NCBI RefSeq assembly: GCF_000003815.2
Contig: NC_049983.1
Span: 16,508,856 to 16,572,855 of the forward strand
Reading direction: 5' to 3'
Length of the DNA stretch: 64,000 nt
DNA from: Branchiostoma floridae
Taxonomy: Eukaryota > Chordata > Leptocardii > Amphioxiformes > Branchiostomatidae
Shown here: piece after piece, positions 7,226 to 61,220 of the stretch
How the letters are laid out: each line of letters opens with the position of its first letter
How positions within the stretch are numbered: position 1 is the stretch's first letter
The notes under the pieces: generated by a model
The model's database searches: none
What the model was told of the DNA's origin: nothing
The model's input: the letters and a program-made list of their open reading frames with translations, nothing else
Program-made: the position numbers and the translations under genes

Positions 7226-8972
7226 TCAGCAATCCTGAGGATAAGAACATGGCAGATGTTACAGACATTTGTGGAGCGGAAGGGAAGATTATAAGGACGG
7301 TGAGTATGACAAAAAGCGGCTAATACATACCTCTGTTGAACCTGTGAAGAAGTCACACATCCATGATGGGTCCTCCGTCTCATCCTCGCGGAGTTGGTCT
7401 GTCTCTTCTTCATCACAATCAATCTGCGAGGACAAGATATGGGGCGCACAAATCTATGCCTCGTTATGCAGAGACAAAGAGGACGAGTATGTTTTATCAC
7501 ACTTTTGTTGTGTCGATGTCCAGACTGGCTTTTACAAGTCTGCTGTAGGAAACGAATCAATTTCTAAAGAAGCAGAAACAAGAACATGTACTACAAGTAC
7601 ATTTGTATTATCATAAAGGCATCATTCTGAATAATTGGATTACCTCTGGAACAGCACGGGATCGTCCTTTGTTACGGTGATACTCTTCATCTTCGAGTTC
7701 TTCTGCGCGTGCCATCATCTCCCTCTCTTCCGGCAGCAATGCCGGATAGCGATCTTCTGATTCATCGTCATGAATGTCGCCTCCTTTGCTGTTGTTTGCG
7801 ACCGACGGATGTTGGTTCGCACTGTTTTCTCCTACAGGAGTAACGCCAGATTTCTTGAAGGCTTTCTTGATCACAGCCTTTGAAAGAAGGCATTTTCTGG
7901 CTTCGTTGTAGATGTTGCAGAAGGACGACTTTGTGATGACGAAGTCGGGCGCAAGACGAGCCTTCACCGCCCGATGGAACTTTGTCTTCATTCGATCGAA
8001 GGGGACGTCTAGAGGATGCCTGAAAACAGTAGTACGAAATGGCAGAGCCATGAAGACGATGTCGTTCTGTGAAGCAAAATCTATGACTTCGGGAGTTACG
8101 TGAGTGCTGCTTGGATCCATTAACACCAGGACAGGTCGCACAGGCGAACAGAATATCAGAAAACATTCCTGCAGCCACCGCAAGAAAGCGTCTCCCTCGA
8201 CGAGTCCTGATGGTGTAACCGCATACAGGGCGTTGTTTGGACCCTCCGAAGTATAGTCTGCGGTGGGAAATGACTTTGAGAAGGTGATCAAAGGTGGGAT
8301 AGATGCACCATCGGCAGCTACGCACTCCAGGCAGGACAATTTGTGATCGTGACCGCCCTTCCTGATGGCAGCACCTGGGACGTTTAACTTGGCAAACGTC
8401 AAGGGCTCCAGTGCTGGGTCAAGGTCAAATCCAATCTCATCTGCATGGTAAACGCGATATGGCTGGCCAGTCAGGCCTTCCTTGGTCATTATGGTCTTCA
8501 GCTGATCAAAGTATTCAGTTCTATCTTCAGATTTTGTGCTCAAATTTTCCAAGAAACCTAGCTGTCGTAAGATCGTACTGTTGCGTTCTTTAAAGCCCTT
8601 CCACCATTTTTGAGACAGTCCCCTCTGAGGGTGTACCTTCGGGGCCGTTCCGTTTTCTGCGCAGTGTCGAAGATGGACTTCAAGAGCAAGCGCGAGAATT
8701 GCCTTCTTGGTGGTGGGAAACCCGTGCTCTGCACGGTACTTCATGTAGTAGATGATGTTGTCTTCTTCATCTTGTAAAATGACAAGGGGCCTCCCCAAAT
8801 TTGCGTCCAGAGCAGACTTGCCTTGTACCTTGTCTTGTAGTGTTGACCGTGGCACACCGTACTTTCTGGAAGCCGCCCTGGTTGACAGTTTGTTTTCAGC
8901 TATGTCTTTCAAAATTTCTTCACATTTTTCCTTGTCCCATTTCTTTCTCTGCTGTCTTGTCTTTATTTTCTT
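7226..8972 (-). CDS. pogo/Tigger-like transposase-derived protein, array copy 1
   Basis: Exons: 8972..7644 (443 codons, phase 0 at both ends), 7423..7331 (31 codons), 7234..7226 (two codons and stop). Splice sites are ttttcag|AAG, GAG|GTAATC, cgcag|ATT, GAG|GTATGT and ctcag|GAT. No in-frame ATG precedes the HTH in the main exon, so a 5' exon with the start codon is missing from this model. Domains, numbered from the main exon: psq-type HTH about 8-52 (AASRKYGVPRSTLQDKV), CENP-B-type HTH about 75-140 (GFPTTKK, KWWKGF), DDE_1 catalytic domain about 165-330. The acidic triad is visible as HADEIG (D178), LMDPSSTH (D286) and HPLDV (D322), with 35 residues between the last two. A charged tail (LPEEREMMARAEELEDEE) and an acidic final exon with WMCDFF follow. 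Family role: DNA binding and strand cleavage; a domesticated host role is plausible but unproven. Polyadenylation signal at 6351. Confidence 0.8.
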
Positions 8973-9786
8973 CTGAAAATGCAAGCAAAGCGAAATTAGT
9001 ATGGCCGAGGGAGAAGTTGGACTACACAATCGATGGACCTAGAATTAGGCAAAATTATTGCCATGTGAGTCTTTTATTTGTTTATACGTAGCTGTGCAAC
9101 TATCAACGATAATTTTCACAAGGAAACAACCAATCTGTATCACCTTGCTACTAATGGTCTATGCTTTAGGATCTGGTACACGAAGCGGCCGACATTTTAT
9201 CATATGTGCTATAGCATGTGTATCTGTACTTTTATCCCCAGTACCATCGCCCTTCGACGCAACACACCAACTTCACAGGCACCCGGCGAGGCAGCAGCTG
9301 GTTATATTCAACTGAATGACTTGTCAGCCCTAACCTTTGCACATCTACCTGCAAGTATCTCGCAAAAAAATGTTGGTATAAAACATACGTTGCATGAGTC
9401 TGTGCTGTTTCATCCAACAAAATCAAATAGATGCCTCGGTACAGTTTCAGCCGTATCAATTGACCTTACTCAAATAACATATCCAGATAGTGCGTGCGCG
9501 TCACGGAATTGGCTTAAAATCCTCGTGTGCTGTTTGATCATAGTTTATCTCGGTTCTTAGGAACGTTTATAGGATAGACAAAAATACTCCATCAATGGAA
9601 TGAAAACATTGTCTCTTTATTTCAAACAACATTTGAATGGATGGATGAATGTTTGTTCAAACTTTACAAACTGAACGTTTGCGTTACATTGATATGTTTT
9701 GCATTATTGCACTTAAAACAAAACCTCAAGGTGGATAAAAGAACAATAAAGTATCTGTTGAAGCAAAACAACAAACATATTATTTA

Positions 9787-10978: not shown

Positions 10979-12673
10979 TCAATCCTGAGGATAAGAACAT
11001 GAAATATGTTACTAATTTTAGAGACATTTTGTGGCAGGAGAAAAAATTTACAAGGACGGTATGTACGATATAAATGGCTAATACATTACCTCTGTTGACT
11101 CTGTGAAGAAGTCACACATCCATGATGGGTCTTCATCCTCGAGGAGTTGTTCTGTCTCTTCTTCATCACTATCAATCTGCGAGGACAAGAAATGGGACGC
11201 GCAAATTTATGCCTCGTTATCTGCAATGAGGAGAAGCATGTTTTCATCGCACATTTCTGGTGTCGACTTTCTAAGCAGCTTTATAAGTCTGCTGTAGGAA
11301 ACGAATCAATTTGTAAAGAAGCAAGAAAAAGTAGTAGCAATCATTCTGTATAATTTCATTACCTCTGGAACTGCATGGGTTCGTCCTTTGTCACGGTGAT
11401 ACTCTTCATCCTCGAGTTCTTCTGCGCGTGCCATCATCTCCCTCTCTTCCGGCAGCAATGCCGGATAGCGATCTTCTGCTTCATCGTCATGATTGTCGCC
11501 TCCTTTGCTGTCGGTCGAGGTATATTGGTTCGCCCTGTTTTCTCTTACAGGAGTAACGCCAGATTTCTTGAAGGCTTTCTTGATCACAGCCTTAGAAAGA
11601 ACGCATTTTCTGGCTTCGTTGTAGATCTTGCAGAAGGTTGACTTAAAGTCGGGCGCGAGACGAGCCTTCACCGCGCGGTTGAACTTGGTTTTCATTCGAT
11701 CGAAGGGGACGTCTAGTGGATGCCTGAAAACGGTAGTACGAAATGGCAGAGCCATGAAGACGATGTCGTTCTTTAAAGCAAAATCTATGACTTCGGGCGT
11801 TACGTGAGTGCTGCTTGGATCCATCAACACCAGAACAGGCCGTACCGGCGAACAAAACGGCAGAAAACATTCCTGGAGCCACCGCAAGAAAGCGTCCCCC
11901 TCGACTAGTCCTGATGGTGTAACCGCATACAGGGCGTTGTTTGGACCTTCTGATCTGTAGTCATTGGTGGGAAATGACTTTGAGAAGGTGATCAAAGGTG
12001 GGATAGCTGCACCATCAGCAGCGACGCACTCAAGGCAAGATAATTTGTGATCGTGGCCGCCTGTCCTGATAGCAGCACCTGGAACATTTAACTTGGCAAA
12101 AGTCAGCGGCTCCATCTTAGGGTCAAGGTCAAATCCCACCTCATCAGCGTGATAAATGCGATGTGGCCGGCCAGTCAAGCCTTCTTTGGTCATCGTTGCC
12201 GTCAGCTGATCAAAGTATTTCGTTTTATCTACAGATTTTGTGCTCAAATTGTTCAAAGAACCTAGCTGTCGCAAGATCTTACTGTTGCGTTCCTTGAACC
12301 GCTTCCACCAACTTTTAGACAGTCCCTTTTGAGGGTCTATCTTCGGTGCTGTTCCGTTTTCTGCACAGTGTCGAAGATGAACTTCAAGAGCAAGCGCGAG
12401 AATTGTCTTCTTGGTTGTGGGAAACCCGTGCTCTGCACGGTACTTCATGTAGTAGTTGATACTGTCTTCTTCGTCTTGTAAAATGACAAGGGGCCTCCCC
12501 AAATTTGCGTCCAGAGCAGACTTGCCTTGTACCTTGTCATATAGAGTTGACCGAGGCACACCGTACTTTCTGGAAGCTGTGCTGATTGTCAGCTTGTTTT
12601 CAGCTATGTCTTTCAAAATTTCTTCAATTTTGTCCTTGTCCCACTCCCTTAGTTGTCTTGTCTTTCTTTTCTT
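10979..12673 (-). CDS. pogo/Tigger-like transposase-derived protein, array copy 2
   Basis: Exons: 12673..11363 (437 codons), 11176..11090 (29 codons, ending TESTE), 10984..10979 (one codon and stop). The acceptor ttttcag and donor GAG|GTAATG are kept, and both junctions stay in phase 0. The psq HTH (STASRKYGVPRSTLYDKV), CENP-B-type HTH and DDE_1 domain are intact, with the triad in HADEVG, LMDPSSTH and HPLDV. No stop or frameshift interrupts it. From HADEVGFD to about KSTFCKIYNEARKC it is identical in protein to copy 3, while its HTH part is closer to copy 1. The 3' UTR carries a 535 bp MITE before the polyadenylation signal at 9616. The start codon exon is not identified. Same probable role as copy 1. 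Confidence 0.8.
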
Positions 12674-14322
12674 CTGAAAATGCAAGCAAAGCGAATTTAG
12701 CATGACTGGGGGAGAAGTTGGACGACACAATCGATGGACCTAGAATTAGGCGAAATTATTGCCAAGTGATTCTTTTATTTGTTTATACGTAGCTGTGTAA
12801 CTATCAACGATCATTTTCAGAACGAAACAACAACAATCAATTTGTATCACCTTACTAGCAATGGTCTATGCTATAGGATCTGATACACGAAGCGGCCAAC
12901 ATTTTTGCATATGTGCTATAGCATCTTTGTTCCAAGTATCATCGCCCTTCGGCGCAACACACCAACTTCACATGTACCGGCGAGGCACCAGCTGGTTATA
13001 TTTAACTGAACGACTTATCACACCTAACCTTTGCACATCTACCAGCAAGCAAGTACCTCACAAAACATTGTTGGTATAAAACATGCAGTAAGTCTGTGCA
13101 GTTTCATCCAACAAAAACAGAGATGCCATGGTAAAGTTTCAGTCGTATCAATTGACCTTAATCCAACATTATATCCAGATGCTGCGTGCACGGCGGCTCG
13201 AAATAAGCTGAAAATCCTGGTGTGTTGTTTGATTTTAGTTCATCTCAGTACTGAGGAACGTTTCTATGAAATAAAACATACTGCATACTGCATTAACGGA
13301 ATGAAAACATAGTCTCTTTATTTCAAACAACATTTGAATGGATGGATGAATGTTTGTTCAAACTTCACAAACTGAACGTTTGCGTTACATATTGACTTGC
13401 TTTGACTAAAGAATTAAGTGCTATTGCATGCTATTGCACTTAAAACAAAACCTCAAGGTGGATAAAAGAAAAATAAAGTATCAGTTGAAGCAAAACAACA
13501 ATCATATCATTAACACAAAACGAACAAATCTCTTCCTGTGGTCACTTAGCACTAACAGCATTGCCTCAGGTAACCAAAATGCCTGATATACAAGTAAAAC
13601 ACGTGACATGAACAAGCCTGGGGTATACGGTATGCTCATCATTTTTTAAAATCAATCCAGTGGCTCTTTAGTCTAAACAAAGATCGAGAAGAGCTTAGAA
13701 CAGGCTGCATAATAGGCTAGCGTACTTTCCTAGGACATTCGTGAAAACGGAACATGCCCTAACCTGAACAAAATTCAACAGTATTTAGTGCACCTAGATA
13801 TTATGTGCATACCATACAAATAGTCGGGACTCTGTAATGCTGACGTCAAAATTCGTATTAAATGTGGCCATTACAAACAATGGTGTTCATTCGAAGCCAC
13901 GCAATGTAATGTTCGGAGAATCCTATCTAGAACGATCTTGAGAATACAATGTGCCAGCATGCTAGCATTAAGCTGAGACCGAGCCAGGTCCGTGACAGAC
14001 TATCCAGCCTCTGCAACGCCACCTGGTGATATACTTGTGCCTGTACAACTTATGACACAACTGTTCGCTTGAGAAGACATCTTAGCACAAGCAGACGCGT
14101 CGACGAGAAGCCGCGAAGTCTGTTCTTTTGACAGTTCTTCAATGGCTGGTAAGAGGGCGCTTTGTTGTCATCAATCCTGAGGATAAGAACATGATATATG
14201 TTACTAATTTTAGAGACATTTTGTGGCAGGAAAAAATTTACAAGGACGGTAAGTATGACAAAAAGCGGCTAATACATACATTTGTTGAACCTGTGAAGAA
14301 GTCACACATCCATGATGGGTCC

Positions 14323-15879
14323 TCAGTCTCGGAGTTGGTCTGTCTCCGGATCCTCTTCATCATTGTCAATCTGCAAAGACAAGAAATGGGACGCGCAAAT
14401 TTATGCCTCGTTATCTGGAATGAGGAGAAACATGTTTTCATCGCACATTTCTGGTGTCGAATTTCTAAGCAGCTTTATAAGTCTGCTGTAGGAAACAGAT
14501 CAATTTCTAAAGAAGCAAGAAAAAGTAGTAGCAACCATTCTGTATAATTTCATTACCTCTGGAACTGCATGGGATCGTCTTTTGTCACGGTGATACTCTT
14601 CATCCTCGAGTTCTTCTGCGCGTGCCATCATCTCCCTCTCTTCCGGCAGCAATGCCGGATAGCGATCATCTGCTTCATCGTCATGATTGTCATCTCGAGC
14701 TCCTTTGCTGTCGGTCGAGGTATGTTGGTTCGCCCTGTTTTCTCTTACAGGAGTAACGCCAGATTTCTTGAAGGCTTTCTTGATCACAGCCTTAGAAAGA
14801 AGGCATTTTCTGGCTTCGTTGTAGATCTTGCAGAAGGTTGACTTAAAGTCGGGCGCGAGACGAGCCTTCACCGCGCGGTTGAACTTGGTTTTCATTCGAT
14901 CGAAGGGGACGTCTAGTGGATGCCTGAAAACGGTAGTACGAAATGGCAGAGCCATGAAGACGATGTCGTTCTTTAAAGCAAAATCTATGACTTCGGGCGT
15001 TACGTGAGTGCTGCTTGGATCCATCAACACCAGAACAGGCCGTACCGGCGAACAAAACGGCAGAAAACATTCCTGGAGCCACCGCAAGAAAGCGTCCCCC
15101 TCGACTAGTCCTGATGGTGTAACCGCATACAGGGCGTTGTTTGGACCTTCTGATCTGTAGTCATTGGTGGGAAATGACTTTGAGAAGGTGATCAAAGGTG
15201 GGATAGCTGCACCGTCAGCAGCGACGCACTCAAGGCAAGATAATTTGTGATCGTGGCCGCCTGTCCTGATAGCAGCACCTGGAACATTTAACTTGGCAAA
15301 AGTCAGCGGCTCCATCTTAGGGTCAAGGTCAAATCCCACCTCATCAGCGTTATAAATGCGATGTGGCTGGCCAGTCAGGCCTTCCTTGGTCATCGTTGCC
15401 GTCAGCTGATCAAAGTATTTCGCTTCATCCACAGATCTTGTGCTCAAATTGTTCAAAGAATCTAGCTGTCGCAAGATCGTACTGTGGCGTTTTTTAAACC
15501 GCCTCCACCATTTTTCAGACAGCCCTTTCTGCGGGTCTATCTTTAACTTTGGGGCCGTTCCGTTTTCTGCGCAGTGTCGAAGATGGACTTCTAGAGCAAG
15601 CGGGAGAATTGTCTTCTTGGTGGTGGGAAACCCGTGCTCTGCACGGTACTTCATGTAGTAGATGATGCTGTCTTCTTCGTCTTGTAACATGACTCGAGGC
15701 CTTCCCAATTTTGCGTCCATAGCAGTCCTCCCTTTTATTTTGCGATGTAGTGTTGCCCGAGGCACACCGTGCTTTTTGGAAGCCGCATAAACTGACAGCT
15801 TGTTTTCATCTATGTCTTGCAAAATTTCCTCTATTTTCTCCTTGTCCCACTCCCTCAATTGTCTTGTCTTTCTTTTCTT
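14323..15879 (-). CDS. pogo/Tigger-like transposase-derived protein, array copy 3
   Basis: Exons: 15879..14557 (441 codons) and 14370..14323 (15 codons then TGA). The frame is also open 5' of the acceptor to an ATG at 15987, so translation could begin there, but the conserved ttttcag acceptor argues for splicing as in the other copies. The psq HTH is the most altered of copies 1-3 (AASKKHGVPRATLHRKI), whereas the catalytic part is identical to copy 2. The triad lies in NADEVG, LMDPSSTH and HPLDV. In the small acidic exon the frame has shifted relative to the other copies, so the protein stops at LRD and loses the conserved WMCDFF end. Polyadenylation signal at 13317. Confidence 0.8.
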
Positions 15880-17438
15880 CTGAAAATGCAAGCAAAGCGA
15901 GTTTAGTAAGGCCAAGGGAGAAGTTGGACGACGCAATAGATGGACCTGGAATTTGGAAAAAGTGCTGATTTCTTTACACTGCCACATGATTCTATTGTTT
16001 CTGCGTGATTATGTAAGTATTATAAATCACTTTACAACATTAGGAATACTTTGTATCACCTTACTCCTATGGGGCTATAATACAGAGGATACATGGACAT
16101 GATACACAAACTATCAATCTTCCAGCAGATACTATTGTGGCATATCAGACATATCAGTTGGCCAAGGAGTTAACCGGCCAAGGAGTTTCATTTGCCGACC
16201 GTAGATTTATTTCCAATAATCATTGTTTATACCATTTTGAATCTTTTTATTTGTAAATCTTATTTGTGTCGTATAGACAACGTTAAAGGTCATCTGTCAC
16301 CTATTTTGTCTTAGTGTGCCTGGTGCTGGTCATCGATGCATTCGTAATAATGTCTGGTAAAAAGGTAACGACGTGACATTCAAATTGGACCCCATAAACT
16401 ACAACCATGAAACGCCAACAGACATAACAGTGGTAGATGTCATTTATTGACAGTACTGAATGCTATGCACGGAAAGTCAGATCATGATAGGGCTCAGTGT
16501 GTACTACTAGCATCAATATAGATTGTAAAATTCGATTACAATATACCTAATTTGAAGCAACATGCGGAAAAACTTAAGTACCACATGTTTTCTTACTTCA
16601 AATACAGTGCAATAATATGACGTGTCACAACTGCTGATCACTTGGTACCAATACTATTGTCTTAAGTAATCAATGCCTCATTGGCAAGTAAGACTCATTA
16701 CATGAATGCCATAAACAAGTGAATCATATGGTGTTTTGTCAGCTGTGTGCATGTCAATTTTGTTGATCTCAGGTCTTAACGAAGACCGCAAGTCTGGTAT
16801 CCTTCCTATACTAGCTCAGTTGGGGCACATTCTGCAGACATTACAGGCTTTGTACTAGGCTAGCGCTGTTCAATACTTCCTTAAAACTTGTTCTCAGAAC
16901 AAGCATAAATATACAAACATATATCTATCTATCTATATATATTTTAATATCTAAAAATAATCGCAGCACACTAAAAAACATGTGTATCACATGTGATGCT
17001 AAAACTTGCAAGAAATGTAAATAACAACAACTAACTCTATTCAAGACTTGCAATGTAGATCATGATATTCGTAGAATTCAAGAACGAATCTCAAGAAATC
17101 AAACCAAATCAAATACCGTGGGCATAGCACAATGAATTCTTCACAGTTGCAATGAATGTGGCCTATATCAACAAATGGTGTTCCATCCAAGCCATGCAAT
17201 GTAGAACCTTAACTAGAACAAATTAGAAGCCATGGCGCCTGCAAGCTGAGACAGAGGCTAGGTCCGTGTCCATAGAATTTAATCTTTGCAGCGCCTTCTG
17301 CTGACATAATTGTACAAATTTCACCCCACTGCTCACTTGAGAAGTCATCTTAGCACGAGAAGACGTGTCGACAAGAAGCCTCGAGGTGTGTTCTGATGTC
17401 AGTCCTACAACGACTGCTGAGAGAACGCCTCGTCGTCA

Positions 17439-19192
17439 TCAATCCTAAGGATACAAAAATGAAACATGTCGTTAAAAATTCAGGTAATTCGCCGAAAAAT
17501 ATGAACATGAAAATGAAACATAAAAGGTGTTTCAGACATTTTTTAAGGAAGAAGAAAAGCACACAAACAAAGAAAGTATATAAAAAATATATACCTTTGT
17601 TAACCATGGAAAGAAGTCACACATCCATCCTGAGCACCCAGCCTTGTCCCGGAACAGTTGCTCTGTCCCCTCTTCAACACTGTCGGGCTGTAGAGAGGAG
17701 AGTGCATTTTAATGCATATGCGCATTTGTGCTGATACAAAGTTTAAAAAAAAAACATCTTTGCTTTCTATAAGAAACAGGTCAATTGATTTTAGTTCAAA
17801 AAATAGCAGTCATCATTATGTATAAGCAAGATATTCAGTTACCGATGAGAATTTCTCGGGAATCTGATAAGATCGTCCTTCCTCCTCAAGTTCCTTTGCG
17901 CGTGACACCATCTCCCGCTCTTCCGGCAGCAATGCCGGATAGCGATCTTCTGCTTCTTCATCGTCATGATCATCACTTCCTTTGCTGGCGTTTGCGACCG
18001 TCGGGGCATCGTTAGACTTGAACGGCTGCTGGTTCATACTGTGCTCACCAACAGGATATACACCGGACGACTTGAAGGCCACCTCGATCACAGTCTTTGA
18101 AAGAACGCCTTCTCTAGCTTTGGTATAGATCTTGCAGAAGGATGACTTTCTGAGGGTGAGTTCTGGTGTAAGAGGATCATTAGCCACGCGATTAAACTGT
18201 GTCTTCATTCGATCGAAAGGAACGTCTAGTGGGTGTCTGAAAACACTGCTGCGACTTGGTAGGCCCATGAGGATAATGTCATTGTTCGAGGCAAAATCCA
18301 TGACTTCGGGTGTCACGTGAGTGCTGCTTGCATCCATCAACACCAGAACAGGTCGCACAGGGGAGCAAAACCGCAGAAAACATTCCTGCAGCCACCACAG
18401 GAAAGCGCCGCCCTCGATGAATCCTGAAGGCGTTAGGGCGTACCGTGCGTTGTCTGGACCTTCCGAGCTGTAATCTGTGGTGGGGAAAGACTTTGAGAAG
18501 GCGATCAAAGGAGGGATAGCTGCACCGTCAGCAGCGATACACTCCAAGCAGGTCAATTTGTGATCGTGGCTGCCTATCCTAATGGCAGCACCTGGAACGT
18601 TTATCCTGGCAAACGTCAGCGGCTCCAGCATAGGATCAAGGTCAAATCCGACCTCATCTGCATGGTAAATGCGGTGTGGCTGACCAGTCAGGCCTTCCTT
18701 CGCCATGGTGGCTGTCAGCAGTGCGGAGAAGTATTTCGTTCTGTCCACAGATTTTCCGATGACGTTGTTCAGAGAATCCAGCTGTCGGACGATCGTTATG
18801 TTGCGTTCCTTGAACCGCTTCCACCATTTTTGAGACAATCCCTTTTGAGGGTCTATCTTTGGCGCCGATCCGTTTTCTGCACAGTGCCGCAGATGGACCG
18901 CAAGCGTTAGCGCGAGAATTGTCTTCTTGGTGGTGGGAAACCCGCGATCAGCGCGGTACTTCATGTAGTAGATGACGCTGCTTTCCTCATCTTGTGAAAT
19001 GATGCAGGGCCTCCCGTTCGTCGCGTCCATGGCAGATTTGCCTTTGATCTTGTCACTCACTGTCGACTGGGGAACGCCGTACTTTCTGGACGCCGCACTG
19101 ATTGACAGCTTGTTCTCGATAATGTCTTGCAACATTTTTGCAATTATGTCCTTGTCCCACGTCTTTCTCGGTTGTTTGGGTCTTACCCTTGT
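17439..19192 (-). CDS. pogo/Tigger-like transposase-derived protein, array copy 4
   Basis: Exons: 19192..17843 (450 codons), 17687..17595 (31 codons), 17444..17439 (one codon and stop). Splice sites are ttttcag|ACA, TCG|GTAACT, ctacag|CCC, AAG|GTATAT and ccttag|GAT; every junction is phase 0 as in the other copies. It is the most diverged member (SISAASRKYGVPQSTVSDK; LMDASSTH; tail QIPEKFSS instead of AVPE) yet keeps the whole frame, all three acidic residues and the WMCDFF end. Retention of open frame and gene structure at this divergence suggests it has been under coding constraint. No in-frame ATG occurs before the HTH, so a 5' exon upstream of 19192 is needed. Polyadenylation signal at 16443. 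Confidence 0.8.
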
Positions 19193-19560
19193 CTGAAAAT
19201 TCAAGCAAAGTGAAGTTAGTATGACCGTCGAGAAGATGGACTACGCAGTCTACTAGAAGATACCTTTAAATTGGGAATAGAGTTTTTTCTTTCTTTTTTT
19301 CATTGCCACGGTGTCGTTTTATTGGCTTGTTTGTGACTAAGTATACGCATGTCAATGATCATTTCTGCAAAAGAAGAACCGCTTTATACCCTACGGGAGT
19401 ACAATATCTGAAACACAAAGCTGTTACATTCTATGTTCTTTCGCACCTCACAAGAGCGTCGCTCAGTCTTGCCATGGGCTTTAGGGTACACCAGAAATAC
19501 GTGTTATTCTCAATGTCCATGTTTATCGAAGTCTTCATAACAATAGCTGATGAAACTTAA

Positions 19561-29226: not shown

Positions 29227-30436
29227 CTGCAACAGCTATAATTGGGTACTGGGGTGAGACCTTGCTTGGACAAGGTTGAAAAATCATGGGAATCCAAGTA
29301 GACAGCAAAAAAGTGAAGCCTATTAGTAAGAAATCCTTGCCTTTGCCCAAAGATTCCAGCTACTCGCCTTGACATGAACAGTTAAGTTGAACTTGGACAA
29401 GTTATGTTTAGAATATTTCATACCATACTAAAGTTAGGGTATTACAAAACTTGCTCTTCAGCAAAAGGTAGTGGATGCTTCGTGTACCTGAAACATCTGA
29501 CCATTTATAAAATCATATCCAGTTGCTTGGGTAACTGCTATTTGGTGCTGAGTTAAAATCTTTCCCTCTCAGTGTATGGGGCAGTCGCCATACCGGTTTC
29601 TATCGCCATTGTGCCACACAGGTAAATAATTATTTCATGATGTTTAAATAAATTGGAAAAACAAAAAAGGACCATTATAAGTCATCCTTTACCAACATTT
29701 GTACATTGTGAATGTTAGAACTGCCTATACAGCCTAGTTTATTACATGACTTTGTATAGATGTGACATTATGGCCATGTCCTACAGTTTGTATGGCTGCA
29801 TTTAACGTCTATTCTTCATTTTTGTTAGACTACTACCTTCAACTTGAACTGAATATTCTGTAGCTTATATACCACCACGATTTGATGTGATTTCCTTAAA
29901 ATATATCCGATTATATACGTATACATACGGAAGTATGGCATCACACTAAGAATTTCAGAAAAAGGGAGAAAATGAAGGACTACTAAATCACACAAAAGCT
30001 TTCAGTTCTTCTTCAGATTTAATCTGAATGACACAAGGCAATAACATGTGTTTACACAATCAAAAGATTTCTAGAACAACAATGTGATTATGGTGAGTAA
30101 AGTCAAAGTTAATATGATTGTCATATCATAATTATAATACTTCATTACACGTATTAAATGTTTAGAAACATTTCAAACTTACATATAAATATTAGTACTT
30201 CCCAACAGTTACTGTAACGGTTGTACAATGTCAGCATTACAATTAATGTTATGTCATCAATGTTAATGTAGGAACCATTAGAAAAAAGTCACTATTGACA
30301 AAAATACTTCCTGGAGACTACCCTTAAGTTAATCATATTACATGCATGTAGATAATGATAACCTCACTAGTAGTACTGCCGGAATATGTACATGAATATG
30401 AAGCTCTCACAGCAATGTGAGATTCACATTCACATA

Positions 30437-30600
30437 GTACATGATTGTACAACTTTGCTGTCCTATACTTACTACTATGCTATTCACACTGACATGGTAC
30501 ATGTACATGATTGTTCAACTTTGCTGTCCTATACTTACTACTATGCTATTCACACTGACATGGTACATGGCTGTTCAACTGTGCTATCCTACACCTTGCT
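30437..30600. repeat. tandem repeat of about 66 bp, 2.4 copies
   Basis: Unit contains caactttgctgtcctatact and tactatgctattcacactga; two full copies and a partial third lie just downstream of the third BEN terminal exon, probably in its 3' UTR. Confidence 0.7.
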
Positions 30601-30734
30601 GGCATCTTGCAGGGCAGCCAGCTTGCTATTGCGTTTCTTACGGCTCTTGCAGGTCGCCCGTACCCTTCCGCACTTCTCGTTGACCACCCTGTACAACCGC
30701 ACCTTCACACCGCCGTACTGTCTCTTCGTCTCTG
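30589..30734 (-). CDS. BEN gene alternative last exon c
   Basis: Acceptor gtttgcag|CAGAGACG; encodes ETKRQYGGVKV, VVNEKCGRVRATCKS, RKKRNSKLAALQDASKV then TAG. It is the least AT-rich of the three, with more GC-ending codons, and best resembles the BEN C-terminal consensus. Confidence 0.75.
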
Positions 30735-33700
30735 CTGCAAACAGAATTCACAGGGACCTTAAATTAAAAGCCTTGTCCTGCTGAGCCCGTTTATATATGG
30801 GATGGACATATTTAACCCTTGTCATGCTGAGCTGTGTTGTTATGGGTTTGGGGTATTTCTCATGTAAAAGTTGCATACCAAGTTGCAAAGCCCATGGAAT
30901 GGGGGAGTAAATCTGCAGCAGCACTGCACAGAACAGGTTTTACTGATCCGATGAAGCCATCAGTTTTGGGGAGTTAAATTGGCCAAAAATCGCCAGCAGG
31001 ACAAGGATTAAATGTTCAGTATGACCGAAGACATTTAGAGTTTGAAGATGTCATGATTCCATGAAAAACTCAGCACTTCTCTTTCATTTCTCATTGTGCT
31101 TTGATCTGATGACTTCTTCTTGTTGTGTTTCTTGCGGGTTGCCCGTACGCTGCTGCACTTTTCATTTACCACCTTGTACAAGATCACCTTCCCTTCACCG
31201 TACTGTTTCTTGGTCTCTGCTGTGAACAGAATTCACATGGATCTTAAGTTAAGGTTCTATTTTCCTGAGAACATTTAGAACAAGAGTTCAAAGATGTCAC
31301 AATTTCCCATTACGTTTATTGATGATCAACTGATGATTTCTTCTTGCGTGTCTTGCGAGTAGACCGTACACGGCAGCACTTTTCATTTACCACCTTGGAT
31401 AACATCATCCTCACACCATTGTACTGTCTCATGGTCTCTGCTGTGAACAGAATTCACATAGGAGGTACAATTTAGTTTCTCAGTGTTTCTCATAAAGCCT
31501 GGTTTAATAAACAAGTTTTGGTTGACATGTACCTTGATCAGTTCCTGTCACTGCAAATTTGAATACAGACCAAAAACAAAACCTTCTTCATTGAGACAAT
31601 GGCTAGGACAGTCATGACTGACTAATGACTACTTGTGCCGACTCTGACCTGTACTTCCTGGATCAGGAAAGTCTAGCCTTTGCGGTCATCTTCAAACTCA
31701 CTTCCTGCCACCCTACTTTCAGTGCATTAAAAACAATTTACCAACACACACCAACCTTAACCCAAATAAAAACAAACATGAAAACCAAAGACTTTGTACA
31801 TGAAGTCTAGCCTGTACCAGGTGCCCAATGCCACAGGAAAATGCAGCAGAAAGAGGCCAAATTGATGGATAATACAGAGGAACCAGCTAAGGGCGCGGTC
31901 ACATAGATTGTGTGATTGAGATACGATTTTGATGCTATGGGATTTTTAAGCAGGCCATGACAGAACCAACCGTCGACATGTATCTGACACAGCATATTGT
32001 GTACCAAGACTGTTGAACTTTGCTGGAGAAGTACATCTTTGTCCTCCAAAATGCCCGTTGTAAGCAATCATAGGACAATCGCACAATCTATGTGACCACG
32101 CCTGTAAGCAAAAACTAGTCTTGCTACATTTACTTCTGTATTTCCCAGTGGCATGGGAAGCCTGGCAGAGGCTGTATGGAGTCCATCACATGCCAGAAAT
32201 CCTTACCAAGAATAGCGCCGATGATAGCAGGATTCAGCGCCTCGTTGTTCCCGCCGCCGTGAAGGTTTCCCCTGAACAGTTCGTCCTCCGTGAAGTAGAT
32301 TCCCATCAGCTCCTTGAAGAACTGCTCAGGTGTCTTGGCCTTGTTCTTGGCCTGGGTCAGGATGTAGGGGTAGGTTAGCACCCCATGCTCCGGCCCTCCC
32401 AGGGGCACTGGGGGCTGTCTAGCCTGCAAAGTAAAGAATCAAACAAAGTCTTAACCCTTAATTCATGCAAATGGAGAACATTTCATTCAGTTAGTTATTA
32501 ACTTACATGCATAATTCATATACCAGTTGTAATGGAAAAAATCATTTGGCTAAGGTACAAATGTATGGGGTCGTGGAACTCTATTTCGCCAATGTGACCC
32601 CACTAAGCTGGTTAATTAATCAGATCAGCAAAACTAGACCTATACTGTGTTGCTGCTACAGAATCACCTAGTACCCAATTGATGCAGTTTGCTGCGGTAT
32701 GCTGCACTTAGTAAAAAAAAGACGTAAAGATACTAGACCCACATACAGGCATCATATATGTGGACCCAGGACAAGACTTGACATCTATGTACAAGTGAAG
32801 CAATGACTCATTCTGTAAATATTTTCTTCAACATCAGACCAAAGCCAAACCAGGACTTTCAATTCTCCAAGTATCCTATTACACCATTTCCAACTTGCAT
32901 ACTGGAAGGCTGCCACTTAATATCTAAATAATTGCCAACACATGCCCAGAATTATTTCTAGTTGTGTCCAAAGTGTGGTACGTGTATCTGAACGAATACA
33001 TGCACTTAACAATGACATACTCACTCTTCCAAAATGTTGTTTCCTTATTTTTTCAAAATTATATTTCAGTTGTTCATTGTGCTATTGGTGTACACATGTA
33101 GTTTGAGATCAGGCTTTATACTTACTTGTACATGTACATGGACCTGGTTTGGATAAATCCAGTTAACCTGCAAAGTGCAAAATTTCACATTTCATAAGGT
33201 AGATGTAATGATGATCAGACTATATGGGCTAGGATTGAGTTTACCAATACAACTACATGTATGATCAACTTATGGGGCATGCACACTTTTCAAGGAGTGT
33301 TCAAATAGTTCATATGATGATGACTAATTTACTTTAAGTATGTATCAAAATATGTTAAATTTATGTCTTGAAGAAAAGACTCAACTGGGATGAAGTGCTT
33401 CTCTTACAACAATGTAGGTAAGGTTTCTGTTAACCTGAGATATAATAACTTCCTGTCCCATACAGGCAAATTATTACTAAACAACCAAGTTTTACTATCT
33501 CTCACTTCCTGTCACTCTTTGAGTGTCAGTGCAAAACAAACAGATAACAGCCAAAAGTAACACATACAAACTCCACACACTGAATAATAATAAAAAGATA
33601 TTCTAGAAATGTCAAGTGGGCCTAGACACTCACCTCAGCTTGGCTCCTGTTATCACCAGGTGGTACCTGAGATGCAGCGGAATGTCCAGGTGAGTTAAAA

Positions 33701-35283
33701 GTGTTCTCAGGTGAGGTGGGATGGGAGTGGGACAGCTGGAATGGCACCCCACCATTACAAGCAGTGGAGGCTGACATTGCGTTAGTGTTAAATGGGGATG
33801 GCAGGGTATTTAGGGGTGGGCTTGTGTTGAGGAATGGGGGGATGTTGGGGGATGGTTCAGTGCTGGGTGGGTGGGTATTGGATGGTGAGCCAGTGGTGTT
33901 GTTAACAGTGGTACTGCCAGTGGGGGTACAGTAAGAGGTGGTCTTGCTAGCAGTGGTCCCTTCAGTGGTTGTGGCTCCTATGGCAGCAATGGGCCAATCA
34001 CAGAATGTGTGCTCTCTTTTTATCTTGTTTCGCCTGCGCGCTCCATTCATGCCCTGCAAAAATCCGGGGGACGAAGGAATTCGGTGTGTGGCCAAACATG
34101 CAGCTTGTAAAGAACGGTTTAAGTCTCATCCCTTCGAGTATAGGGTTCCATTACACTTTACACTGAATCAAAAATAGGTGGCCTCTATAGTCAGGCTTCT
34201 GCTTTTCAAAAACAAGAAGCTTTCTCTCCTTTCTTTGCCTCGAAAAAGACTTAAAAGTATGAGAATAGAATAATCCTAGAAAATAAAGGAGATTCAAATG
34301 AAAGGACTCTCTCACACAAATAATAATATAATAATATCAAATTATTCAATATTGAAACAAATCCATGGATATATGTAATAAAAATGTGCAAGACAAGACT
34401 GATCGGGTTCATCGACACACTCTTGAACACAGAATCTCTTGAGCCTGCAAAATTCTACACAAAGCCAAATAACGCCACATGAAATTAACTGCAAAAAATT
34501 GCTCAAATATTAACTAAATTATTTTCTTTTTTTTAATTGAGTAATTGTTTTACCGTGCACAGTACGTCATTCATACCCCTATAGTTTCTGTATAGAATAA
34601 CAATTTCTCGTGGCATACCCGGTAAAAGTATGATACAGCACTACCACTAATGGAGAAGCCTGCTGTTGAAGTTAACACACCTTGTGGCATTCTGACAGCG
34701 GGTAGTGCTTCCATGGGCAAAGGTTTAGCCGCAGGATATGCAAATTGTTCCATTGTGGTTTGCATGAGCTTAGTGCTATCTACATGTACAAACTGTACAT
34801 AAGAAGCATATCCATGTAGGAGAAGCATATTCGAGTAGGCTTCTACTTAGTTAAAGACTGAGGGTTGTGTATGCCAAGTCTTGAAAAACCTCTACACACA
34901 ATATAAATTTTATCTGAAAGTCATTCTAATGCCCTTTAACTGTTATTGACCATGAAGCAATGTTTTCCAGTGTTCCTTGACCGTCTGTTATTGCAGCATT
35001 TACTTGTTTAGGATGCAACTGCATTTACTGCAATCTGTGCACTAGTCAAAGGTACATTAATTTGAGAAGTATGTGGTGAGTGCGAGATAGGTGTAAGTTG
35101 ACAGCACAAAACTCAAATACATACAAAGCTCTGATTGTGCTAGTCCCTGCACTTGTCATTAGCTGCTCTATCTTAAAATACGGGTTTCAAACTTTCCCTC
35201 CCAACAGTTGATGAAACATTTACAAAACATGTAATACTATCATCTAAAAATCGCACACAAATAACCTATGAAGGATACGTACC
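30589..35283 (-). CDS. BEN-domain protein with three alternative last exons
   Basis: A probable non-coding first exon ends at 35283 (GGAG|GTACGT). Coding exons: 34765..34619 (ATG, 49 codons), 34053..33634 (140 codons, basic ARRRNKIKR then Ser/Thr/Pro/Asn-rich), 33167..33126 (14 codons, VNWIYPNQVHVHVQ), 32423..32207 (BEN N-terminal part: TPEQFFKELMGIYFTEDELF, NEALNPAIIGAILG), ending in phase 1. Three downstream exons each begin with CA in the matching phase and carry a stop: 31440..31316, 31219..31035, 30734..30589. Each completes the BEN fold with a variant of ETKRQYGGVKVRLYRVVNEKC and a basic tail. Predicted products are 316, 336 or 323 residues. BEN domains bind DNA and mediate protein contacts in chromatin repression; a nuclear role is inferred. 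All junctions are GT-AG and phase-consistent. Confidence 0.8.
31035..31219 (-). CDS. BEN gene alternative last exon b
   Basis: Same acceptor sequence as exon a (gaattctgttcacag|CAGAGACC); encodes ETKKQYGEGKV, VVNEKCSSVRATRKK, and a longer unrelated end (SFSWNHDIFKL) to TAA. The extra tail may reflect loss of an earlier stop. Confidence 0.7.
31316..31440 (-). CDS. BEN gene alternative last exon a
   Basis: Acceptor gttcacag|CAGAGACC; encodes ETMRQYNGV..., VVNEKCCRVR, ends KKKSSVDHQ then TAA. Phase 1 entry matches the donor at 32207. It is the last exon nearest the BEN exon. Confidence 0.75.
31891..32103. mobile_element. MITE with GGTCACATAGATTGTG ends
   Basis: Left GCGCGGTCACATAGATTGTG and right complement GGCGTGGTCACATAGATTGT are inverted repeats about 210 bases apart, with no coding frame. 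Lies in the intron between the BEN exon and its first alternative last exon. Confidence 0.65.
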
Positions 35284-36882: not shown

Positions 36883-39800
36883 TCAACGGCGACGTTTTTT
36901 TCCAGGTTTCTGGGCCCTGTGTCTCCTCATCCTCTCTCTTACGTTCGCATTTCTTCTCTCCCTTTCCTCGGGACTCAACAAAGCCACTGGCGTGTAATAT
37001 TTCTTGACACGATTCATCTCCCTTTCCTTGTACAGTACGCCTTCTCTTGCCTTCTTCCTTTCCCTGTATGCTCTCTGAATTTCAGCTCTTGTCTTCCCCA
37101 CTTTCTACGTGAAACCAAAGTAAAAACTATGTTTGCTTAATGCAAAACACACATAAACTCCTCGCATCTGATCACCTTTTAAAGTTTTTCCCACCTAGAA
37201 AAGTTAAGGGAAAATGTACTTTTGTCTGTGATTTATGCCCTTGTCTGTTTACATGTATGTAAGGTAACTAAAAAACCTGTGACTGTTTTCGAGTGGAACC
37301 AGGTGTAATACTAATATGAGCACAAAATGGACAAGCTCCTCCAACAGTTCTTGCTGGACCATATTTAAAAACCCGAACTCAAGCCAAGGAATGCACTTTG
37401 AACATTGTCAAGTATTGAATTATGTGCAATGTTTTAGTCGTTGATATGATCTGCCACAGGCGTTTTCACACTGTTTCAACATAAAAGGCTCCCATATATT
37501 AACAAACAGAACATGCATTAAAAAAATGATATGGCTACCTATCATAGTAAAAACATAATACATAATATTTCCAGAGTCTATAGGTCAGGAAAAAGTACCG
37601 TTTATGTGGTTGTAGAAGCTGTAGAAAGTACTAAGGTAGCCTGCAAGTAGCACTTAAGATAGCCTGATACTTTCTTGCTACAGCATTGGCACACGTTAAC
37701 TCAGAATGGGTGATTGTATAGGTGTAAAATGTAGTATAGACAACAAATTAGACAGTACCTAAAAATTTCTTATGACTACCTACATAAGTGCAATTTCCTT
37801 TTGACTGTTCACCCCAAAATTTATGACAAACCTGCAAGTGTGTGAAACCCTATACCCGAGAGAAATAGCCAAAATGAGTCAGCTAACCTTCACTGGTTCT
37901 TCAGTCGAAGTTGATGGCTTGGCGTCTCCTTCGTCTTCTGTGGACACTTCCACCTTGTCTAGCTCTTGAGACAGTTGTCTTGGCGAGGAAGGACAGTGCT
38001 CACTACTCAAGTCCTCCTGCTCAATATCTTCTGTGCCTTCTTCCACCTCTGACTCCGTCTTAATTCTCTCGGCCTGACTAAGGTTTCGTGCCAATCTTCC
38101 TTGTGACCCGTCTCCAATGCCTGGATGCCCCGTTTGACTCGTTGAGGGTTCTGTCGTGCTTGCAACAATGTTGGAAGAACTAGAAGATGTGGCCACACAG
38201 TACTCAACATCTTCGACAGGCTCTTTCTTGACCAGTACTTCTACAGGGTACGCACTAGAAGTACTTGGAGCCTCAGAGATGTTCATGTCTGCTGCTTGTC
38301 TGCTAGTAGAAGTCTGTTGAATCATCATTGTGGGTTCCTGGATATTATCTGTGGGGGCTTGTTCATTGTTTGGTCCTGAAAACACTTCGCTACCACTTGT
38401 CTCTTCATCAAGCCGAGAACTGTGCTCGAACGATGAGCTAGCGTCACTACGACTGTGCTCGAATGTAGAGCTAGTGTTACTCGTGTCCATGCTAGTACCA
38501 CTGTTCCCCTCCGCTTCTTCGTACTCTCTCGTCATGACCTCTCTCAGCACATGTTCAAGGTCGGACCTGCCCCTGGGCCTGTCTCCGCCTGCTGGCTTCA
38601 CCACGATGCTTCTCCGGTTGAGCTCGGACAGCAGCTCTTCTGTGAACATTCTGTTCAACAGGGCAAGGGTTGTCTCCTTGGAGAAGCCGAGGGTGCCCAC
38701 CATTGGAGTACTGTCCTGTAAGAACAATGATAGGAAACTTAAGAAAGACAGAAGTTGGAGCATGCTTGGTCTTGGGGTGAGCAATCCTTCTTGTTGACAC
38801 ATGAGTTGAGGGTTTCAATCCTGAGTTCAGGATTTAATTAGTTTTCCTGAAGAGTTAAATGCATGCAATGAATACACATACACACATACAAATGTACATG
38901 AATACACACATACATGTAGTATGTACACATACACACACAAGTACACACACATGCACATATACACACATGAATACACACACAAAATTACTAATACACAAAT
39001 GAATAAACACACAAACATACAAGTAACATACTTGTATCATCATATTCTTATGAAACAAATATAACCTAATTAGAGCCCCAGCCATAATATGTCTTTATTT
39101 GTGATAGAAACATTTATCAAAAGTTAAGAACCATTACCAAGACAACTTACCTCTTCACTGACATGGTCACCAGCTCCATGTAAATCTTCACCACCATGTT
39201 GTAAACTGTCCGAGACACGAGCACGCTTCGATGTGCTCGGTGCCGTGGTGTCACCTCCTGCCTGTGCTCCACCTAGTGCGTGATGGCACATGTTACATTG
39301 TTAGTTAGGATATATTGTGCATCATATGGCCTGGCAATTTGCAATAACCAACAAATTAATAAATCCACGGAGTAAGAGAAGCAAATAAAAGAAAAGGTGG
39401 GGCATTAATGACATTATCATAATTTACTGTATAACTCATACATCTTTTAGTGCTTTATACTACTTGTGCAAATGTAAATAAATAGCCAATAAAAATTAAA
39501 AGGTCTGCAGGAGGGCAGGAACTAAGGTTGAGATGGAATCATTGTAACGTTATCTATTTCAGTATCTATGTCCTACCTACCCTAGAAAACATTCATTTTA
39601 ACAACAACAATTCCAACATGGAAATCCAGAATTTGAATTTTTGACCACAGCTTGCATGCATGCATGGTCCACATTGACGATATGCGTTTGGATGATTCTA
39701 TGCAACCATATTATGTGATAAACTATAGAACCCCATGTGATATCCTAACTTTATTCACCACTTGTGGAACTTCTATGACGTTATGGCATAAAAAATGATA

Positions 39801-59423: not shown

Positions 59424-59535
59424 CCTGAAGGGTTAATCAGCTGATGTGTCACTCAGCTTTTGGCATAACACACCAGTTCCTACTTCCTAGCTACTGTCAT
59501 ATCAATTATCATTCATTGTATCAGATCTAAACATA
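59424..59535. repeat. direct repeat flanking the LINE, left copy
   Basis: Contains tgtcactcagcttttggcat and aacacaccagttcctact, repeated at about 61513-61615 on the other side of the LINE. Confidence 0.7.
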
Positions 59536-59539
59536 CCTA

Positions 59540-61220
59540 TACCGTATACGCTACCGTAAATAATTTCATCAGGTTGGTCAATACTCATAAAGTTCTTTTA
59601 GACCCAACCATAAACAGCTCGATAAACATCTCTGAGCCCGGAGTGCGAAAACTGATGCAAAACCTGGACCCCAAAAAGGCTCCTGGTCCCGACGGCATCA
59701 GTCCTAGGTTGCTGAAAGAATTGGCAGTCGAGCTAGCACCAGCACTCACTCTCCTTTTTCAGTCTTCACTCGAGTCGGGTGTCGTACCACGAGATTGGAG
59801 AACAGCAAATGTTACCCCAGTCTATAAGAAAGGGGAACGCTATCGTCCTGAGAATTACAGGCCAATTTCCCTTACCAGTATTCCATGTAAGATAATGGAG
59901 CATATTGTTACTAGTACGATTATGTCTTATGTAGAAGAAAATGAAATCATATGTAAAGAGCAGCATGGGTTCAGACGCCGCCATTCCTGTGAAAGCCAGT
60001 TACTCGGACTTGTGGATGACTTGTCTGTTGACCTTGAACAGGGGAGACAAACAGATGCCCTGATAATGGATTTTAGCAAGGCATTCGACAAAGTTTGCCA
60101 CTCCCTACTCATCCATAAGTTAAACTACTACGGCATCACAGGGTCGCTGCAGACCTGGATCCAGAGCTTCCTCACCGACCGCCGGCAAGCGGTAGTAGTG
60201 GAAGGCTCAACTTCAAGTTTTGTACCAGTAGATTCAGGAGTGCCGCAGGGATCTGTTCTAGGCCCCACCCTGTTTCTGTTATATATAAACGACCTCCCTA
60301 CCAGTTTGTCGTCTATTGCTCGTCTGTTTGCAGACGACACCTTGGCACACAAAACCATCAGCTCGACTAGGGATCAGGAAGTACTTCAAGAAGACTTGGA
60401 TCGTCTTGCTGAGTGGGAGCAAACCTGGATGATGAGTTTCCATCCAGACAAGTGCCAAGCACTCCATATCACAAGGAAGAGGGTCCCCCAAACAATGAAC
60501 TACAAACTTCATGGTCACACTCTTGTCTCAACCAAGGAAGCCAAGTATCTAGGAGTGACAATTACCTACAATCTCACTTGGTGTACGCACATCGCAAACA
60601 TCACGAACAAGGCCAGCAGAACCCTAGGTTTTCTGAGAAGAAACATAAAGGTAGGATCCAAAAAGATAAAAAACCTTGCTTATGTTACATTAGTCCGACC
60701 ATTACTAGAATTTGCTAGTCCCGTTTGGGACCCCTATACAGCAAAGGACATAGCGAAGCTCGAAGCGGTCCAGCGTAGGGCTGCCCGGTGGGTGTCAAAC
60801 AGGTATCGACGGTCCTCCAGTGTCAGCGAAATGCTTCACGACCTTGAGTGGCCAACACTCCAGGAGAGACGACGGAGGGCCAGATTGGTCACTTTTTATA
60901 AATACCACTCAGGGGATCTGGCTATTAACTGCAAAACGAGTCCCGCTCCACAAGCTAGAAGTTCGAGATCGACCCATCCCGCAGCATACAAGGTACCGAC
61001 TAGTAGAACCCAATATAGGCAAAATGCCTTCTTCCCACGTACAACTAGAGACTGGAACGGCCTCCCAGCGGAGGTGGCGCTATCGCCATCCTTGTCTATG
61101 TTTAAATCCAAAATATAATCCCCCCTCAGTCTGCGCAGTGAACCTCTCCATGTTGCCACGGCTGCAGAATCCTCAAAAAGATGAGGTTGGCAGCCTAACC
61201 GAAAGAAGAAGAAGACCATG
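59540..61220 (+). mobile_element. 5'-truncated non-LTR retrotransposon (CR1/Jockey-type LINE) with intact RT frame
   Basis: An open frame ending TAA at 61118 encodes about 510 residues of reverse transcriptase and its C-terminal part. Motifs in order: PKKAPGPDGISP, YRPISLTS, DFSKAFDKV, GVPQGSVLGP, FADDT (catalytic), EAKYLGV, then a C-terminal region with FYKYHSGDL and RDWNGLP. The endonuclease domain and ORF1 are absent, so the copy is dead-on-arrival 5' truncated. The 3' end runs to an agaagaagaag tail near 61215. It is antisense to the ARF gene. The lack of disrupting mutations in the RT implies a fairly recent insertion. Confidence 0.85.

Follow-up and report, generated by a model that had tools for sequence, protein, structure and literature searches.

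Can a gene exchange only the DNA-reading part of a DNA-binding domain through its choice of last exon? This question is raised by a small gene on the minus strand of the 64,000-nucleotide stretch of Branchiostoma floridae DNA analyzed here (the window). The gene encodes a protein with one likely BEN domain, no other domain being recognized in the pieces searched, and its shared BEN exon is followed by three tandem last exons (e1, e2 and e3). The initial annotation held that the donor of the shared exon can join any of the three, so that the DNA-contacting second half of the domain, and with it binding specificity, could be chosen by splicing. The exons of the gene, in transcript order, are as follows.

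33634..34053, minus strand: probable first coding exon, with an ATG at 34050, a low-complexity Thr/Ser/Pro-rich N-terminal region and phase 0 out
33126..33167, minus strand: possible 42-nt in-frame microexon, VNWIYPNQVHVHVQ, with AG and GTAAGT flanks and phase 0 on both sides
32207..32423, minus strand: shared BEN exon, by alignment the N-terminal flank and helices 1 to 3 of the BEN domain plus most of helix 4
31316..31440, minus strand: e1, alternative last exon 1, ETMRQY...VVNEKCCRVRST..., stop TAA, elevated omega
31035..31219, minus strand: e2, alternative last exon 2, ETKKQY...VVNEKCSSVRAT..., with a longer tail and elevated omega
30589..30734, minus strand: e3, last exon 3, ETKRQY...VVNEKCGRVRAT..., stop TAG, the constrained and, by comparison with paralogs, putatively ancestral copy

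The sequence, its translations and tblastn confirmed the three homologous last exons as described, with respect to coordinates, acceptor context, phase, core and separate stops. The shared exon (32423-32207 on the minus strand) ends in ATT CTT G before gtaagg, a phase-1 donor that leaves one base over. Each last exon opens with CA GAG ACC/ACG after an AG, in a common acceptor context that reads ...ATTCTGTT(CA/TG)CAG before the cut and CAGAGACC/G after it. From ET to the stop, the exons run for 40 (e1), 60 (e2) and 47 (e3) codons in the same frame, each to its own stop. In-window tblastn demonstrated protein identities of 55-64% among the three at E values of 1e-8 to 1e-10, which indicates homology and not chance, and found no further last-exon copy at E<1 in the 64-kb window. 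Their DNA identity is 76-82% over 118-133 bp. An assembly or haplotype artefact was rejected on two grounds: the aligned DNA of the exons shows 18-24% difference, and the scored genome matches include the full region only once. The acceptor of each exon is CAGCAG, which provides two candidate sites 3 nt apart. All 12 joined reading frames (with or without the 42-nt exon, at either candidate AG, into any of the three last exons) stay open to a single stop, and donor 32207 can accordingly join any of the three acceptors in frame, as had been proposed. With one donor, several acceptors of the same phase and a separate stop in every exon, the prediction of splice-competent alternative last exons is supported.

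To establish which of the exons is the older, the paralogs of the gene are informative. A search of the B. floridae genome (513 Mb, 431 contigs) with e3 at E values up to 1 returned six matches, namely the three window exons and three elsewhere. The family therefore has at least three paralogs as found through the e3 query, and others whose last exon has diverged may have escaped it. Each of the three paralogous last exons has a copy of the shared exon upstream of it, with donor and phase conserved, and the identity of that copy to the window exon is 79% at L018, 81% at L019 and 72% at L020. L018 and L019 share 99% DNA identity in the shared exon, so that the three paralogs amount to about two independent comparisons. 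A second last exon was found in none of the three at E<1e-3 within about 10 kb around each. Among the window exons, e3 is the closest to the paralogous last exons; the DANQV tails of L018 and L019 match the DASKV of e3, the DDNQ of L020 does so in part, and no paralog tail (0 of 3) resembles those of e1 or e2. Since the paralogs have the same layout with a single, most e3-like last exon each, we take e3 to be the ancestral exon and e1 and e2 to be extra copies, seen only in this gene. The paralogs also bear on the acceptor. The ATTCTGTT tract recurs in one of the three (L018), whereas L019 and L020 carry close variants of it. The boundary of L020 reads TTACAG before CTGAAACC, which suggests that the first AG of CAGCAG is the ancestral site, in which case the junction would read ILAET and not ILET.

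Splice sites were scored with a simple generic matrix and were ranked among all AGs or GTs on the strand. The first coding exon is open and in frame with the next exon, and its acceptor and donor fall in the top 0.4% of AGs and the top 0.05% of GTs, respectively; because no homologue was found in the three paralog loci, the exon is given as probable only. For the 42-nt microexon the corresponding ranks are the top 3.9% (acceptor) and the top 0.6% (donor), and one of the three paralog loci (L019, 3310-3342) has an INWIYP-like stretch, bordered by AG and GTACGT, ahead of its BEN exon. Directly upstream of the BEN gene and on the same strand lies a THAP-domain gene (40639-36885, minus strand, E 1.4e-9), with its THAP exon at 40639-40214 and, apparently, a very basic C-terminal exon at its end, followed by AATAAA signals; these signals and the exon joins were read by eye only. 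A THAP-BEN fusion was rejected because the THAP gene appears to stop near 36885, ahead of those signals, and the BEN gene carries a probable ATG exon of its own. A BEN-like stretch in the THAP gene (LLNRMFTEELLSEL) was also rejected, at an hhalign probability of 1.3.

The assignment of the domain to BEN, made in the initial annotation, withstood profile comparison as a remote similarity. The BEN model (PF10523) has a curated family cut-off of 23.2 bits, which was not reached by any spliced window form or paralog, and the scores shift with the junction residue. Without the junction Ala, the e1 form scored 18.5 bits (E 0.0024; 17.9 bits trimmed), the e2 form gave no match either full or trimmed, and the e3 form gave none at full length and 14.7 bits when trimmed. 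With the Ala included, the e2 form scored 15.9 bits over profile positions 2-54, and the e1 and e3 forms, as well as trimmed e3, gave no match. The paralogs L019 (21.1 bits, the best of all) and L020 (18.1 bits) also remained under the cut-off. By this model, therefore, the relationship to BEN is remote at best; the genome contains three other BEN matches above the cut-off, and the window gene is not among them. An hhalign comparison of the family (5 rows) with a BEN set of four PDB sequences (BANP, Insv, NACC1 and BEND6) and three own-genome BEN sequences gave a probability of 93 and an E value of 3.3e-7, the alignment extending to the residue after the helix-5 Cys (VVNEKC). The window forms alone (3 rows) against BEN (4 rows) reached only a probability of 18.6 and an E value of 0.0013. 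Among PDB chains, the window proteins matched no BEN chain and the family profile matched BEND6 best (E 0.17), with none at E<0.1. When the last-exon tails were shuffled and scored against a small HMM of six BEN sequences, they did not stand out, as 203, 177 and 274 of 500 shuffles matched the scores of e1, e2 and e3, respectively. For the shared exon alone, AlphaFold gave a weak model in which four helices reach at least 4 residues (pLDDT 61), and a search of viral contigs for relatives gave 99 pattern matches, 0 of which were confirmed. On balance, we regard the BEN identity of the family, with helix 5 placed in the last exon by alignment, as likely.

What would be exchanged can be read from known structures. 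As described in PMC11472053 and PMC10206803, helix 5 is the base-reading helix that inserts in the major groove in NACC1, BANP, BEND6 and BEND3, and the base contacts include S313 and R316 of BANP and D462, T465 and R469 of NACC1. By homology, the exchanged last exon would thus encode the end of helix 4 and the C-terminal, DNA-reading helix 5. To map the contact sites, the family Cys was placed on BANP C315 / NACC1 C464, with numbering derived from PDB sequences and the residues named in those papers. The BANP S313 / NACC1 D462 site is Glu in e1, e2 and e3 alike, and the BANP R316 / NACC1 T465 site is Cys, Ser and Gly in e1, e2 and e3, respectively. In the same order, the BANP T317 / NACC1 N466 site is Arg, Ser and Arg, and the BANP R320 / NACC1 R469 site is Ser, Ala and Ala. 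The Arg that is changed in e2 is kept in e1, in e3 and in all three paralogs. Three of the four DNA-facing positions vary, as compared with 5 of 15 in the helix (P 0.08); this enrichment of variable sites is not significant and is suggestive only. The claim that the second half of the domain is exchangeable stands as far as the in-frame acceptors and the aligned helix 4 end and helix 5 are concerned; a choice of specificity by splicing is a hypothesis.

The signals that would govern such an exchange, together with the repeats around e3, are as follows.

31315..31320, minus strand: AATAAA overlapping the e1 stop codon (about 1.3% expected by chance per 30-nt span on the strand)
30764..31011, no strand assigned: interspersed repeat of about 244 bp between e2 and e3, bounded by terminal inverted repeats and a TTAA at each end
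30422..30591, no strand assigned: tandem repeat with a 66-bp unit (2.7 copies), past e3 in what is presumably the 3' UTR
30018..30023, minus strand: ATTAAA, probable poly(A) signal for e3, about 570 nt past the e3 stop

Donor 32207 scored 3.7 bits, in the top 1.6% of GTs. The acceptors of e1, e2 and e3 rank in the top 7.1%, 7.1% and 5.5% of AGs, respectively, and that of the shared exon in the top 0.5%. Splicing from one last exon to another, which the initial annotation had named as evidence against a choice among them, was rejected. No donor above 4 bits occurs inside e1 or e2, and the GTG before GTAAAT, seen by eye in these two exons, would exit in phase 0, a frame in which e2 and e3 hit a stop. 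The one donor-like site lies in e3 after 30703 (minus strand; GTGAAG before GTGCGG), and its 5.0 bits exceed the score of donor 32207, so that the simple matrix does not settle site usage. The expectation of a poly(A) signal after each last exon was not borne out, as a canonical signal lies near the stop in e1 only. Past the stop of e2, no AATAAA or ATTAAA occurs within 900 nt, and the weaker variants AGTAAA (30944) and TATAAA (30795) both fall within the interspersed repeat. Forms that differ in the acceptor alone and share an end after e3 would not require three poly(A) sites, and in that case the ATTAAA at 30018..30023 could possibly serve all of them.

The array itself retains traces of its origin. 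The exon starts lie 221 and 485 nt apart, the second distance being about 241 nt without the interspersed repeat, which makes up most of the stretch separating e2 from e3. With the repeat left out, the spacer after e2 is colinear along its length with the e1-e2 spacer, which indicates a locus of three tandem units of about 220-240 bp plus one later insertion. The inverted ends of the repeat read CCTTGTCCTGCTG...CAGCAGGACAAGG, and its TTAA ends suggest a piggyBac-like MITE. A genome query with 30589-32423, for which 40 of 1106 candidates were scored, returned the locus itself in full and at least 40 partial matches, all within about 31015-30756; these are other copies of the repeat, 81-90% identical to it. 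When its ends were compared with seven other copies, five were in the same orientation and shared the left end; the other two (L005 and L007) have the opposite orientation and were unhelpful for this comparison. Elsewhere in the window, four tandem open frames on the minus strand (7614-9038, 11309-12739, 14503-16008 and 17819-19240) encode Psq helix-turn-helix and DDE_1 transposase domains (pogo-like). They are uninterrupted over 474-502 aa from stop to stop, share 68-90% protein identity and start 3.2-3.7 kb apart, an unusual arrangement for transposase-like frames without internal stops. A reverse-transcriptase open frame (RVT_1, E 3e-34) lies at 59469-61115 on the plus strand.

A comparison of substitutions between the exons, as the initial annotation had recommended, demonstrated constraint on e3 and near-neutral change in e1 and e2. 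Pairwise omega values were 0.19-0.23 for e1-e3, 0.25-0.34 for e2-e3 and 0.74-0.82 for e1-e2, and the shared exon gave 0.06, 0.06 and 0.14 against L018, L019 and L020, respectively. A codon likelihood model in our own implementation (28 codons, 6 sequences) assigned omega 0.92 to the e1 and e2 tips and 0.04 to the background, a value that is rough because several background branches were fitted long (saturated), and was better than a model with one omega (P 2e-5). An omega of 1 was not rejected for the e1 and e2 tips (P 0.89) and was rejected for the e3 branch (P 0.007). Addition of the branch above e1 and e2 gave omega 0.79 with the same outcome (P 1e-5; for omega of 1, P 0.71). Fitting e1 and e2 separately gave omegas of 0.51 and of the upper bound (20), as the data are too few to split them. 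The nonsynonymous share of e1-e2 differences is 0.75, as compared with a neutral expectation of 0.76. In a neutral simulation of substitutions alone, both 36-codon frames stay open with P 0.31; selection is unneeded to account for the open frames in e1 and e2. Family-invariant residues carry 5 changes against 8.1 expected, a deficit that is not significant (P 0.095; neutral simulation with six ambiguous sites set at random). Two blocks are unchanged between e1 and e2, one of 28 nt spanning the acceptor and the beginning of the exon, the other of 22 nt coding KVVNEKC. The clustering of differences outside them gave P 0.0005 for both blocks versus uniform placement and P 0.037 for the coding part alone, in a test picked after the alignment was seen, and local gene conversion could mimic it. 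The e1-e2 alignment has no indel over 36 codons, whereas that of the spacers is gapped. Constraint on the exons is thus unequal, e3 being conserved while e1 and e2 look splice-ready and evolve almost freely.

We favor a minor, low-level or recently acquired alternative use of e1 and e2, to which we assign a probability of about 0.48. Two tandem duplications of a roughly 220-bp unit, made up of the 3' splice site, the last exon and the spacer, would have left three acceptors all within reach of donor 32207. The ancestral e3 would make the main protein, and e1 and e2 would be younger copies in which the acceptor still looks functional, the frame is open and the helix core is preserved, with fast drift elsewhere, including at positions that contact DNA in other BEN proteins. 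Simple competition among the acceptors would give e1 and e2 a minor share as alternative ends; e1 may have a poly(A) signal of its own, e2 would share the one after e3, and their proteins would carry an altered DNA-reading helix on which selection is weak or recent. That e1 and e2 are spliced in, that their proteins are made and that DNA binding changes is what we infer from the sequence. Against such use, an omega near 1 is the pattern expected of idle duplicates, the acceptors of all three exons are middling and e2 lacks a canonical poly(A) signal. Indeed, e1 and e2 look like recent copies that may be not yet, or no longer, functional. In a second reading, somewhat less probable and close to the first, e3 is the sole working last exon and e1 and e2 are decaying tandem duplicates, skipped or spliced as noise, too young to have lost their acceptors and open frames. 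The tip omega of 0.92, not different from 1 against 0.04 elsewhere, the neutral nonsynonymous share (0.75 versus 0.76), the 0.31 chance that both frames stay open, the missing e2 signal and the single last exon of all three paralogs agree with decay; the unchanged acceptor and helix-core blocks (P 0.0005) and the indel-free 36 codons beside a gapped spacer do not.

A regulated three-way choice, providing three DNA-binding specificities with e1 and e2 under diversifying selection at the base contacts, appears unlikely. A mixture of diversifying and purifying selection would also produce an average omega near 1 with an unchanged core, and the BANP R316 site differs in all three exons; however, 28 codons allow no useful site-level test, the enrichment at DNA-facing positions has a P of 0.08, and e2 alters the Arg common to e1, e3 and all three paralogs. 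It is similarly doubtful that this is a BEN regulator that swaps only its DNA-reading helix through three tandem last exons, each providing a different DNA motif, with e1 and e2 early in diversification. Given a dN/dS of about 1 in e1 and e2, the gaps in poly(A) signals and the absence of extra exons from the three paralogs, equal regulated use of the exons for binding specificity is a hypothesis. Less probable still, e1 and e2 would be decoy or dose-lowering acceptors, whose unstable or non-binding ends tune the amount of the e3 form. They precede e3 with nearly equal acceptors (1.3 versus 1.8 bits), and a quickly changing protein sequence behind an unchanged splice site would agree with this role, but the second unchanged block codes the helix core, which is superfluous for a decoy. 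These likelihoods are not exclusive shares, as the regulated choice is a stronger version of the low-level use that we favor.

If e1 and e2 are used, the gene would be a compact natural case in which splicing replaces the recognition helix of a DNA-binding domain and nothing else, and the ancestral exon and the single-last-exon paralogs would serve as ready controls. If they are unused, it would be a clean example of terminal-exon duplication yielding ready-to-splice alternatives before selection. Comparison with the paralogs makes the question testable either way. Literature searches on BEN domains with alternative splicing or THAP revealed no such gene, as judged by titles and the starts of abstracts. 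Nothing was found joining the BEN domain with Branchiostoma, with THAP and amphioxus, or with last-exon isoforms, nor on tandem, duplicated alternative last exons in DNA-binding domains.

Several known systems resemble the arrangement in part. Exons 18 and 18b of FOXP1 are internal. These alternative exons alter residues within one DNA-binding domain and hence its motif, and they are mutually exclusive and have a demonstrated function (review, PMC11701043), while the window exons are terminal and carry stops, and their function is hypothetical. Turning to exchange at the C-terminus, mod(mdg4) displays a lola-like exchange of C-terminal exons. BEND5 and BEND6 are vertebrate kin of the BEN-solo proteins. 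Drosophila lola joins a common N-terminal part to one of several C-terminal exons, most of them with zinc fingers, and so swaps whole C-terminal exons in about 20 isoforms, also by trans-splicing (PMC1947980). Unlike lola, the window gene would swap part of one domain, and its three copies, candidates for use only, lie within 0.9 kb. BEN-solo is a term in use, as PMC6911014 indicates, and the Drosophila members Insv, Elba1 and Elba2 likewise have one BEN domain with the DNA-reading helix, whose role is described in PMC10206803, at its C-terminal end. The window family is remote in sequence from the BEN-solo proteins, BEND6 being its best PDB chain at the E value of 0.17 given above, and, unlike theirs, the BEN domain of the window gene is split, by alignment, by an intron inside helix 4, with its last exon present in triplicate.
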